Of a stretch of DNA of 32,285 nt, positions 9,959 through 21,039 are shown one piece after another. The stretch spans positions 1-32,285 of the forward strand of contig QIJL01000567.1 of the NCBI GenBank assembly GCA_003232435.1, given 5' to 3'. This DNA is from Flavobacteriales bacterium (lineage in GTDB: Bacteria; Bacteroidota; Bacteroidia; Flavobacteriales; Flavobacteriaceae). The position numbers and the translations under genes were made by a program. The notes below the pieces were generated by a model. That model saw only the letters and a list, made by a program, of their open reading frames with translations. It was not told the DNA's origin and did no database searches. The stretch's first letter is position 1; every line of letters begins with the position of its first letter.

Positions 9959-10714
9959 TTAAGAATATATACCCCCGTTGATGTTAATTACCTCTCCGGT
10001 AATATATGAAGACTTATCGGATGCCAAAAAAGACACCACATGGGCAACTTCTTCGGCCGTTCCGAATCTGTTGGCAGGGATGATCTTTTTCAATTCTTTT
10101 TCGTCTAGTTCGGCGGTCATGTCGCTTTTAATAAAGCCAGGCGCGACCGCATTTACCGTGACGTTTCTTTTGGCGACTTCTTGTGCAAGAGCCTTGGTCG
10201 CCCCAATGACTGCGCCTTTGGCCGCGGAATAATTTGTCTGCCCCGGAGTACCCTTGAGACCGGAAACCGAAACCATATTAATGATTCGGCCATATTTATT
10301 GACCAATAATTTTTGGATCAGGGTATTGGTCACGTTATAAAATCCGTTGAGGCTGGTATCGATGACCTTCGACCAGTCTTCTAGGGGCATCCACATAAAA
10401 AGCCCGTCTTTTGTGATTCCAGCGTTGTTTACAATCACTTCGATGACAGCATCCTTGTTTTTGTCATGCCAAGATTCCAAAATAGATTTTACCCCATCGC
10501 CATCGACAACATTGAATTGTAACAACTCTCCTTTTCCCCCGGCTTCCTCAACTAATTTCAAGGTTTCCTCTGCAGCTTCCTTGTTACTGTTATAGTTGAT
10601 CAAAAGGCCATAATCCAAATCTTTTGCTAACTGGAGACAAACGGCTCGACCGATACCTCGAGAGCCACCTGTAACTAATGCGTATTTTTGCTTTTCTATT
10701 TTTTTATCCTCCAT
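9959..10714 (-). CDS. fabG: 3-oxoacyl-ACP reductase (FabG-like SDR)
   Basis: 251 aa; TGGSRGIGRAV, NNAG, S...YSAAKGAVIG, C-terminal GEVININGG. Confidence 0.92.
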   Translation of the reverse strand: MEDKKIEKQKYALVTGGSRGIGRAVCLQLAKDLDYGLLINYNSNKEAAEETLKLVEEAGGKGELLQFNVVDGDGVKSILESWHDKNKDAVIEVIVNNAGITKDGLFMWMPLEDWSKVIDTSLNGFYNVTNTLIQKLLVNKYGRIINMVSVSGLKGTPGQTNYSAAKGAVIGATKALAQEVAKRNVTVNAVAPGFIKSDMTAELDEKELKKIIPANRFGTAEEVAHVVSFLASDKSSYITGEVININGGIYS

Positions 10715-10733: not shown

Positions 10734-11832
10734 CTAATTGGCATCAGCAAAGTTCTCCGCATTTTTGTACCACTTGTTGCCTAAGAGTTCTCCTTTCGTA
10801 TTAATAAAACCCCAACCTTTTTTGGTCTTGACCCTTGCGAGACCATTGATAAAACCTTTTTCGGCATTCTTTTTAAGAAAAGAAAATCCTGCGGAAATAT
10901 CATATTCCATGGGAATTACGAGTTTGCCGGACTTATCGATAAACCCCCATAACTTCTCTTTCACAGGCGCAAGGCCATCGGCCGAAAATGTTTCTGCATC
11001 CTTATATTCGAAATCGATGACTTGTTCTCCTTTTTCATTGATATAGCCCCATTTTTTGTCCTTGAGCACTGGTGCCAATCCATTTGAAAAAGCACGGACC
11101 TTGTCAAAGGAAGGCTCGATTACCCATTCGCCTTTATTATTGATGAAACCTATTTTTTCATCTTTTTGTGCATAGGTTAGGTCTGAACTTGCCTTGAAAT
11201 CCCAGATTTTTGTCGCATCGGAAACCGGAGTGAACCTTCCGTTGACAAAAACCCCGAAATCGGATCCCTTTTTCCCCCAAACACCGTTAGTGTTATAGGT
11301 TCCGACTTCTTCATATTCAGCAGGAATAACAACTTCCCCTTTTGCATTGATCAGCCCCCAAAGCTCTCCCTTTCGAATTTTGGCATGCCCGTCCCAGAAC
11401 TTTTTGACGGTTTCATGGGTCGGTTCGAGAATAAGTTTTCCGTCTCCTATATAATGCAACACCCTCTTCAAAATCGAAATATTTATCGGGAGGGTCGACC
11501 TCCAAAACCTCGCCCGAAGTTTTGATATAATTCCATTGATCATCCTTGAAAACCAAGGCCAATCCTGAATTAAAGGCCTTGACTTTGTCATATTGCGGTT
11601 CGATGGCCCATTTTCCGGAGGTATCGATAAATCCCCATTTTTTGCCATCTTGGGCAGCGGCCAGTCCATTTGAAAAACTTGCGGCTTTTTTGAAGTCTGT
11701 CTGTAAAACATAGCTGCCGGAGGTATCGATATACCTGACCTTGCCATCCTCTACGACTTTTGCCAATTCTTGGGCATACGATGAAATGATGCCAAGCACT
11801 AAACATAAAATAAGAGTAATTTTGATTTTCAT
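10734..11832 (-). pseudogene. WG-repeat secreted protein, split by a frameshift
   Basis: Signal peptide MKIKITLILCLVLGIISSYAQ starts at 11832. Repeats (KKWGFIDTSGKW, KKWGYINEKGEQ, KGWGFINTKGE) are split between ORFs 11413-11886 and 10734-11747; the frame changes near 11448-11460. Confidence 0.78.
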
Positions 11833-11883
11833 ATCGCTAGTATTTAAAATAATTATCTGTTTTTCAAAGGTTGGATTAGAAAA

Positions 11884-12128
11884 CATTAGTGTCCGATAAA
11901 AGATATAAGACCGCTTACTTCGACAAGCTCAGCACAGGCCGCTTTAAGACGCAAGAATCAAGACTTGATCGTAGCTATCAGATAAACAATGCTTTAAATT
12001 ATGATAAATTTTAGTGGAAATGTAAATTTAAAAAAGCAAAAAAGCAAGGTGTGTCCTTTTCAAAATCACTCGATCTATTGCTGCATATCGTTTTCAGGCA
12101 TTATTGTGAATTTTAATCGGACAACAAT
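11884..12128. mobile_element. MITE-like element copy A (245 bp)
   Basis: Ends CATTAGTGTCCGATAAAA / (rc) ATTGTTGTCCGATTAAAA; flanked by perfect 10-bp direct repeats GATTAGAAAA (11874-11883 and 12129-12138). Shares TAAAAGATATAAGACCGCTT and AATCGGACAACAA with copy B. Confidence 0.85.
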
Positions 12129-12239
12129 GATTAGAAAATAGAATAGAGATAAGAGAAGGTAGCCTTCTTCTTTCTAGGTTTTGCAATCGCTTAAAGTCTA
12201 TTTTCTTTATTCTATTCTCCTTTTTCTATGTCTCTTTTT

Positions 12240-13772
12240 TTAGCTGTTCTTATGGTTAGTGATAAAATCCTTCACTTGGTTAACATAAGGGTACATGATC
12301 AAGTCTTCTTTGAACGGGGGAACGATTTTTCGAACGGCATCATACATGTTTTTGGTCTTGGTGGAAACCTTATCCTGCACTTTTAAATATTCAATTGCCT
12401 GAACAACGGTAATCATCTCTATCGCGATAACTTCAAAGGCATTTTCAATAACCTTCTTGGTAATAAGTGCAGCGTTCGCGCCCATACTCACGATATCTTG
12501 GTTATCGTTGTTATTGGGGATACTATGCACATACATTGGGTTCGACAGCATTTGATTCTCTGCCGTGGTCGAAGTGGCCGTAAATTGAACGCCTTGCATA
12601 CCGAAGTTCAACCCTAAAGTACCTAAATTGACAAATGGCGGTAAAATATCGTTCAGTTTTGAATTCAATAAATAATTCAACTGGCGTTCCGCCAACATGC
12701 TCATTTTCGTAACGACGATTTTAAGTTTGTCCATTTCCAAGGAAACATAGTCGCCGTGAAAATTTCCCCCGTGGTACACATGTTTTTTCTCAACGTTCAC
12801 GATGGGGTTGTCATTGGCCGAATTTACCTCTTGAATCAAAATGCGTTCGACTTCATTCAAAGTATCTAGGACCGGGCCAAGAATCTGGGGTACGCATCGC
12901 AAGGAATAATACTCCTGAACTTTTTCCTCAAATACCGATACACCACCATTGGTGTCGGTGTAAAGATGGTGTTCGCGCTTGCGCGTCAAGCTACTGTCGT
13001 TCAAATGACTGCGCATCGATCGGGCTATTTCCCGCTGCCCATGGTGCTTTTTTGTTTCGTTAAGATCAGATGAAAGATGATCATCGTAAGCCTGCACAAT
13101 TTCATTTATTGCAGAGGAGCAACTGATCATCCATTCGAGAAGCCTTCTTGTATAGATGGCATTGACAATACCGATACCGGTCATTACCGAGGTGCCATTG
13201 ATAAGGCCAAGCCCCTCGCGTAGCTCGACGTGGATGGGCTCGATTCCTTCAATTTCAAAAACCTCTTTTGTCGGTCTTCGATCACCTTTATAAAATACCT
13301 CGCCCTCGCCGATAAGCACTAGGGCCAGATGCGCCAATTGTACAAGATCGCCACTCGCACCCACCCCACCATGTTCATAAATAAGCGGTACGATATCTTT
13401 ATTGATCAAAGATGCCATAACCTCGATTACAGAGGTGTGCACCCCTGAATAGCCCAGACTAAGCGTATTCAAACGGGCCAACATGGCTGCTTTGACATAT
13501 TTAGGCGGAATAGGATTGCCCGTACCCGAAGCGTGGCTTCGAATTAGATTGTACTGTAATTGTACGGTCTGCGAATCCTTTATTTTGTATTGGGCCATGG
13601 GCCCGAAGCCCGTATTGACGCCATAAATGACTTTATTCTTAGAAAATTCTTTTAAGAAATCGAAACTCTCCTGTACGGTTTGAATTACCTTGTCATCAAC
13701 AGATACTTTTTCCTCATCGAAAATTATTCTGTAAAAATCCGTTATTTCTAACCTTCCCTTAATTTGTGGCAT
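12240..13772 (-). CDS. Aromatic amino acid ammonia-lyase, probable tyrosine ammonia-lyase of a flexirubin locus (HAL/TAL family)
   Basis: 510 aa; MIO motif GGVGASGDLVQLAHLAL, YGVNTGFGPMAQY, NDNQDIVSMGANA. Sequence resembles the flavobacterial TAL type from memory (IRSHASGTGNP). Confidence 0.9.
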   Translation of the reverse strand: MPQIKGRLEITDFYRIIFDEEKVSVDDKVIQTVQESFDFLKEFSKNKVIYGVNTGFGPMAQYKIKDSQTVQLQYNLIRSHASGTGNPIPPKYVKAAMLARLNTLSLGYSGVHTSVIEVMASLINKDIVPLIYEHGGVGASGDLVQLAHLALVLIGEGEVFYKGDRRPTKEVFEIEGIEPIHVELREGLGLINGTSVMTGIGIVNAIYTRRLLEWMISCSSAINEIVQAYDDHLSSDLNETKKHHGQREIARSMRSHLNDSSLTRKREHHLYTDTNGGVSVFEEKVQEYYSLRCVPQILGPVLDTLNEVERILIQEVNSANDNPIVNVEKKHVYHGGNFHGDYVSLEMDKLKIVVTKMSMLAERQLNYLLNSKLNDILPPFVNLGTLGLNFGMQGVQFTATSTTAENQMLSNPMYVHSIPNNNDNQDIVSMGANAALITKKVIENAFEVIAIEMITVVQAIEYLKVQDKVSTKTKNMYDAVRKIVPPFKEDLIMYPYVNQVKDFITNHKNS

Positions 13773-16535: not shown

Positions 16536-16567
16536 TTTGGTCAGTATTTAAATTAATATTTATTTCT

Positions 16568-16783
16568 ATTGTTGTCCGATTATAATTATTTAAATCTATT
16601 TAAAGCCTTGCTATTGCTAAGTTTAAAGGGTTCTTAAAATAAGACACTTTGCTTTTGGATAATATAATGAAAATTATAGGATGTAAAATTCACATATCAT
16701 TGCCAAGCAGGTTATCAGTTAGTTACGGTCGCATCTTTATTCTAACAGCGAAGCGGTCTTATATCTTTTACCGTACAACAATG
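16568..16783. mobile_element. MITE-like element copy B (216 bp, inverted relative to copy A)
   Basis: Ends ATTGTTGTCCGATTATAA / (rc) CATTGTTGTACGGTAAAA; flanked by perfect 11-bp direct repeats TATTTATTTCT (16557-16567 and 16784-16794). Confidence 0.85.
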
Positions 16784-19739: not shown

Positions 19740-21039
19740 ACTAGTGGGTACTAAAAAATATAACAAGTTCTTTGAAATTCCTTGTATATCGTATTTACGG
19801 CAATTTTTGGTAGCGTGACGATTTGAATCGGAAAATAGGATTTTTGTTTAAAAATCCCATGAACCAAGGTAAATATGTCTTCGCCCAGATTACCGAATTC
19901 CTTCCGCGAAGGGTTTTCGACCGTATCGTAAAGGAACATCACGGCAACGGATACGTCAGGAGTTTCACCTGTTGGAACCATGCTCTGCATGGTCTTTGGG
20001 CAACTGACCTCAAGGGACGGTATGCGGGACCTGATTTTGAGCCTAGAGGCACACCGCCCCAAATACTACCATTTGGGGTTCGGGACATCCGTTACCAGAC
20101 GTAACCTTGGCAAGGCCAACGAAAAGAGAAGCCACAGGATCTTCGAGGAGTTCGCCTACGCCCTGATCGCCGAGGCCAGGAAAAGTTGTTACCGTGACGA
20201 TTTCGAGATCGATGTGGATGGCAACGTGCATGCCCTTGACTCTACGACGATAGACCTTTGCCTGAGCGTGTTCTGGTGGGCGGAGTTCCGAAAGGCCAAG
20301 GGAGGGATAAAGCTCCATGTGCTTTATGACGTAAAGACATCGATCCCCGGCTTCCTCCATATATCCAATGCGAGCCTCCACGATGTCAACGTGTTGGACA
20401 TACTTGCGTACGAGGCCGGAAGCTTTTACGTGATGGACAAGGCGTATATCGATTTTGCCCGGCTGTACGAGATACACCTGCAAAAGGCCTTTTTCGTTAC
20501 CCGTGCCAAGAAGAACATGCGCTTCAAAAGGATGTACTCGACAAGGACCGACAGGGTCAAAGGCATAAAATACGACCAGATAGGAAAACTAGAAGGACGC
20601 CATGCCAAAAAGAGCTATCCCGAAAAATTCCGGCGCATAAAGTATTTTGACGGTGAGGCCGAAAAGGAATTCATTTTCCTGACCAACAATACGGATCACA
20701 ATGCCACCGAGATAGCGATGCTGTACAAGAAACGCTGGGAGGTGGAACTGTTCTTCAAATGGATGAAACAACATCTGAGAATAAAATCATTTTGGGGGAT
20801 CAGCATCAACGCGGTCAAGATTCAGATCTATTGTGCAATCATAGCCTATTGCCTTGTCGCCATAATCGGGAACAAACTCAAATCAAAGCGTAGAATCTAC
20901 GAAATATTACAGATATTGAGCATATCGCTACTCGACAAAACCCCTGTAAGAGAGATACTTACAGATTACGATTACAAAGATGTCAAAGAACTAGAATCTA
21001 AACAATTGAAAATCAATGGGTTTTAAGTACCCACTAATG
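19740..21039 (+). mobile_element. IS4-family insertion sequence (1300 bp)
   Basis: Terminal inverted repeats ACTAGTGGGTACTAAAA / (rc) CATTAGTGGGTACTTAAAA; 10-bp TSD ACTTTACTTC at 19730-19739 and 21040-21049. Confidence 0.92.
19859..21026 (+). pseudogene. IS4-family transposase (DUF4372-like N-terminus), frameshifted
   Basis: MNQGKYVFAQITEFLPRRVFDRIVKEHHGNGYVRSFTCWN in one frame, continuing as MLCMVFGQLTSRDGMRDLILSLEAHRPKYYHLGFG in another. Consistent with a 2-nt loss at about 19979. Confidence 0.85.

Follow-up and report, generated by a model that had tools for sequence, protein, structure and literature searches.

We describe a short non-coding element, element A, that lies among the flexirubin pigment genes on the stretch of DNA analysed here (the window, 32,285 nucleotides). 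Element A is a MITE, an ordinary kind of mobile element, and we propose that a transposase of the IS4 family, with IS4Sa as the best-fitting subgroup, acted on it in trans and inserted it into the flexirubin operon after the lineages had split; we give this reading a probability of about 0.93. The ends of the element, its TSD, the number of its copies and the variety of their targets, its absence from relatives and the existence of insertion sequences with matching ends are direct observations. According to the proposal, the ends of element A, which carries no transposase, would be recognised in trans by an IS4-family transposase (DUF4372 plus DDE_Tnp_1), and cleavage of an AT-rich site with a stagger of about 9 bp would give rise to the TSD. 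The element would have entered between flxA and the WG-repeat gene after the split from the two same-genus species compared. Cut-and-paste is the mechanism of the IS4 family (PMC2266710), and we infer this mode for element A from the family.

Element A and its insertion site

With boundaries aligned to the rest of its family, element A measures 246 bp (Table 1). Repeat detection returned inverted repeats at 11881-11901 and 12112-12132 that are 81% complementary, and the two ends, CATTAGTGTCCGATAAAA and CATTGTTGTCCGATTAAA, are alike at 15 of 18 positions and so form imperfect terminal inverted repeats. With at most one mismatch, TGTCCGATWAAA occurs six times in the window, against 0.75 expected, and its only two exact sites are the two ends of element A. 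The family profile matches the element over model positions 1-224 with an E value of 3e-35, as it must by construction, element A being part of the model. The exact direct repeat GATTAGAAAA flanks it at 11874-11883 and 12129-12138. In the preliminary description, the element had been drawn as 245 bp with a 10-bp TSD. The bases and the junction are the same, yet the element is best drawn one base shifted, as 246 bp with the perfect 9-bp TSD ATTAGAAAA, because 33 distinct elements of the family have an exact 9-bp repeat. That the element is MITE-like and non-coding between direct repeats, as first described, is borne out by its ends, its TSD, its copies and a longest open frame of 44 codons. It has several of the features that define a MITE: a non-coding sequence shorter than about 500 bp, inverted repeats, a TSD and dispersed copies, together with ends shared with an autonomous element, here through the loci L117, L123 and L143 in other genera.

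Table 1. Positions in the window of element A, its parts, the neighbouring genes and a second copy of the family
Feature	Position	Strand	Basis
flxB, flexirubin SDR reductase	9959..10714	-	NF053542, 417.5 vs 340-bit cut-off
WG-repeat gene, downstream of element A	10734..11832	-	PF14903
TSD, left copy, ATTAGAAAA	11875..11883	.	exact direct repeat; 10 bp with G11874
MITE element A, 246 bp, non-coding	11884..12129	+	profile match
Terminal inverted repeat, left, CATTAGTGTCCGATAAAA	11884..11901	+	repeat and motif comparison
Sub-terminal conserved motif TAAGACCGCT, common to MITEs of other genera	11906..11915	+	alignment
Nested palindromic mini-repeat TACTTCGACAAGCTCAGCACAGG, 23 bp	11916..11938	.	same column in 7/43 aligned copies
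Terminal inverted repeat, right, CATTGTTGTCCGATTAAA on minus strand	12112..12129	-	repeat and motif comparison
TSD, right copy, ATTAGAAAA	12130..12138	.	exact direct repeat
flxA, flexirubin tyrosine ammonia-lyase	12240..13772	-	NF053541, 894.7 vs 700-bit cut-off
Second family copy, 217 bp, TSD TATTTATTTC (10 bp)	16567..16783	-	profile E 5e-33

The pigment locus named in the preliminary description could be identified gene by gene, with flxA, the WG-repeat gene and flxB as neighbours, all on the minus strand. The distances given there to the start codon of the WG gene, 51 bp for the element and 42 bp for its TSD, are correct (ATG at 11832, minus strand), and the 3' end of flxA faces element A. 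We then compared the site with that of relatives. In two genomes of the same genus (G001 and G002) flxA is followed by the WG gene at a distance of 10-12 bp; the two genes apparently overlap by a few bases in three species that belong to a neighbouring genus. The gap is 407 bp in the window, and element A with one copy of the TSD makes up 255 bp of it. Element A used as a query gave no score against G001 and G002, in which the exact end motif has zero matches. The syntenic site had been proposed as the place where an ancestral sequence would be recognised, and the sequence of element A is absent from it in these five relatives of two genera. Judged from these gene orders, element A is clearly not ancestral at the flxA-WG site. 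The exact pre-insertion allele was not recovered in the relatives compared, a further 150 bp or so being different; this residual part of the gap is mostly purine-rich and lies on the flxA side. Between the MITE and flxA, a purine-rich stretch of about 101 bp (12139-12239) is missing in relatives. As a candidate for another repeat this stretch was rejected, since it gave only short low-complexity matches and no high-copy repeat.

A further claim would be that the insertion changes the output of the operon, for example through the distance that now lies between flxA and the two downstream genes (WG and flxB), or through a promoter carried in the element, and we consider it possible but doubtful. 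In relatives flxA has the WG gene as its immediate neighbour, whereas here element A stands between flxA and both downstream genes, and the contrast between the 407-bp gap and the close or overlapping genes of relatives speaks in favour of such an effect. Moreover, the frame of the downstream WG gene is broken near 11443, with a net loss of 29 bp relative to an intact homologue of 375 aa in a same-genus genome. This break would also fit an altered output; however, it may represent either real decay or an error of the draft assembly. As for a promoter, there is a sigma-70-like match on the minus strand at 12026-11998, but it is a consensus hit of a type that is not suited to Bacteroidota, and the terminator-like site at 12168-12154 falls outside element A.

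Family copies and their target sites in the host draft genome

Multiple genomic copies, each with its own TSD, had been predicted, and the search of the host draft (G000; 4.14 Mb, 669 contigs, 84% complete) confirmed them. Element A as a query gave 58 matches, and end-motif sites numbered 94, compared with six for a reversed-pattern control. When ends were paired and flanks tested, 48 distinct elements were obtained over all the loci fetched in several genera, about 30 of them in the host, where they range from 176 to 476 bp and each has a different, AT-rich TSD. An exact 9-bp TSD was present at the expected place in 33 of the 48 distinct paired elements. These exact repeats are 89% A+T, against 62% in the flanks, and their pattern is close to ATTTTTAAT, mostly with A first and T last; the target sites of the family differ from one another. 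Insertion by transposition is well supported because one copy, L078 (G000:C320:2535-2759), splits a DoxX-like gene, the homologues of which are uninterrupted in five relatives. When the flanks of this copy are joined, a single frame of 137 codons is restored, the two halves of which match codons 1-86 and 71-137.

The copy closest to element A in the host genome is 74% identical to it, and by this measure element A lies outside any recent burst of copies. It may be old within the lineage, since the host draft shows only IS remnants and no near-identical copy.

Element A also contains a nested palindromic mini-repeat, TACTTCGACAAGCTCAGCACAGG. The same insert is found in six other copies, across at least two subfamilies, and one of these copies, L011, is otherwise close to copies that do not have it. 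This distribution suggests either a site-specific recurrent insertion or conversion between copies. Fragments of the repeat also occur by themselves at other places in the genome, as well as in other genera. Palindromic GGCAGG/CCTGCC inserts occur at other fixed places in the MITE copies L003, L013, L014, L023, L052 and L074.

Proposed partner insertion sequences and the body shared across genera

We scanned 399 genomes of the bacterial family for exact matches to the end motif, which is present in 14 genera. At two of the loci, L123 (1387 bp, TSD ATTTTTTAT) and L117 (1414 bp), the match belongs to a complete insertion sequence. A search with the transposase of L123 added a third, L143 (1383 bp, TSD ATAAAATAT, 72% identity), in genome G136, which also harbours MITEs bearing these ends. 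The three belong to three other genera and not to that of the host, and up to 16-17 of 18 bases of their ends match those of element A. The transposases of L123 and L117 match PF14294 (DUF4372), PF01609 and NF033592 (IS4 family) above the cut-offs, with NF033592 scores of 213 and 202 bits against a cut-off of 115. The YREK signature Y(2)R(3)E(6)K reads YKNRWQIETMFKRLK and YKKRWQIETLFKQLK in the partner transposases, their DDE spacings (D69D101E and D69D104E) are within D(60-110)D(100-150)E, and the TSDs of the partner IS, 8-9 bp, correspond to the length of about one helix turn that characterises the IS4 family. On these sequence features, the partner IS are IS4-family members. The IS4Sa subgroup is defined by ends of the form CA......T, a size of 1150-1750 bp and a TSD of 8-10 bp (De Palmenaer et al. 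2008, PMC2266710); the partner IS, with ends CATTGTTGT / CATTAGTGT and 1383-1414 bp, fit the published end and size criteria, and by these, rather than by a tree with reference members, IS4Sa is the best fit. The IS4-like label initially given to the ends of element A is thus backed by complete IS that have the same ends and IS4-family transposases.

In the host draft (84% complete, 669 contigs) no intact transposase bounded by these ends was found. It holds only distant relatives of the transposase, the long ones at 29% identity, and a short N-terminal remnant near a TGTCCGATAAAA end on contig C97. The PF01609 transposases of the host were rejected as parents, 0 of 21 being bounded by these ends, and so was an IS4 element of the window (19740-21039), the ends of which, CATTAGTGGGTACTTAAAA, share CATTAGTG with the family and then diverge. 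The latter is a separate IS4/DUF4372 element of about 1300 bp with a 10-bp TSD, ACTTTACTTC, located inside another gene, and its transposase is frameshifted near 19990. Plasmid records contained relatives of the partner transposase at less than 60% identity only.

Past about 18 bp, the body of element A shows no match to the IS ends (profile score 18 bits), and because of this unlikeness a simple internal deletion cannot be recognised as its origin. When 23 elements drawn from many genera are aligned, the layout runs from one end to (T)AAGACCGCT.CGCT about 25 bases in, then through a block close to AAGACTTGATTGTAACTA and on to AAAAGCAAGGTGTC before the opposite end. Over its whole extent, element A can be aligned with MITEs from other genera, the aligned length staying close to 224 bp throughout. 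A profile built from the 23-element alignment was run against 150 genomes of the bacterial family and matched 28 of them at E <=1e-5. Many of the weaker matches are partial and may be due to composition; at E <=1e-11 there were matches in nine genera (G000, G015, G029, G061, G136, G146, G164, G173 and G189). Among named organisms, the full body is present in, for instance, Aquimarina sp. U1-2, Salinimicrobium nanhaiense, Gillisia limnaea, Galbibacter orientalis and Gelidibacter salicanalis. Taken by itself, the end motif has a wider distribution than the body, extending to Bacteroidales and other orders. Phage records gave no match; the viral contigs L304, L305 and L306 carry the exact end motif.

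The conserved layout may reflect shared descent together with transfer between genera, or a constraint on the element. One could imagine, although we hold this only tentatively and with the odds against it, that selection on the element itself has kept the body of about 224 bp, which would then represent an independent MITE lineage of long standing within the phylum and not a series of re-derived IS deletions. The selected features could be, for example, sub-terminal sites for transposase binding or regulation.

It could also be argued that element A does not belong to a MITE family at all and is the decayed, stranded remnant of a single IS4 copy, derived by internal deletion. Such remnants do exist, since IS ends and parts of a transposase persist at the loci L121/L131 (527 bp), and the right end of one G000 subfamily, GTAAACTTTTTTAAAAGT, resembles the transposase-start end of the IS at L143, ATAAACATTTTTAAAAGT. 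However, element A, with a longest frame of 44 codons, contains no fragment of transposase and aligns fully with the MITEs of other genera, and we consider this origin very improbable.

A structured RNA was rejected as well: folding z-scores were -0.02 and 0.01 against shuffles, Rfam gave no match to the element near the gathering score, and folding of the alignment returned no covarying stems besides the terminal repeats. An RNA role is therefore not supported, folding being at the level of shuffled sequences with no covariation past these repeats. Another reading, with the position between flx genes as its sole argument, would make element A a regulatory sequence conserved in this intergenic region of the flexirubin operon, with only the appearance of a transposon. 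Its probability is negligible in view of this folding behaviour, of the absence of element A at the corresponding position in the five relatives compared, which represent two genera, and of the copies at dozens of unrelated sites.

Relation to known elements

We retain the reading of element A as a MITE mobilised in trans by a transposase of the IS4 family. In the open-access literature, searched by sequence string and by topic, with most subscription journals outside this range, we found no published description of the family, which appears to be undescribed and unnamed. With the ends, the preferred targets and the likely transposase of the family defined, copies can be annotated instead of being mistaken for regulatory DNA, and they can be used as insertion markers. 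The insertion in the flexirubin operon also provides a natural experiment on whether pigment genes are altered by elements of this kind.

The partner IS resemble IS4Sa elements in size (1383-1414 bp), CA......T ends, YREK signature, D69D101-104E spacing, TSD of 8-9 bp and single-frame transposase; element A, in contrast, has no transposase. Among the MITEs described in Bacteroidota, MITECca01 of Cardinium, about 240 bp and derived from IS982, was found in one strain only (PMC9769881), and BrickBuilt, MITE239 and MITE464 are MITEs of Porphyromonas gingivalis (PMC4596501). Like the family of element A, these four are short and non-coding, carry IS terminal repeats, are present in many copies and have a body largely unlike that of the parent IS. 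They differ in having ends of the IS982 or IS5 type, whereas those of the element A family are of the IS4 type, and MITECca01 is confined to one strain whereas this family occurs in many genera. Finally, the 23-bp palindromic mini-repeat nested in element A recalls REP-type repeats; REPs, however, have neither IS ends nor a TSD, while element A is bounded by both.
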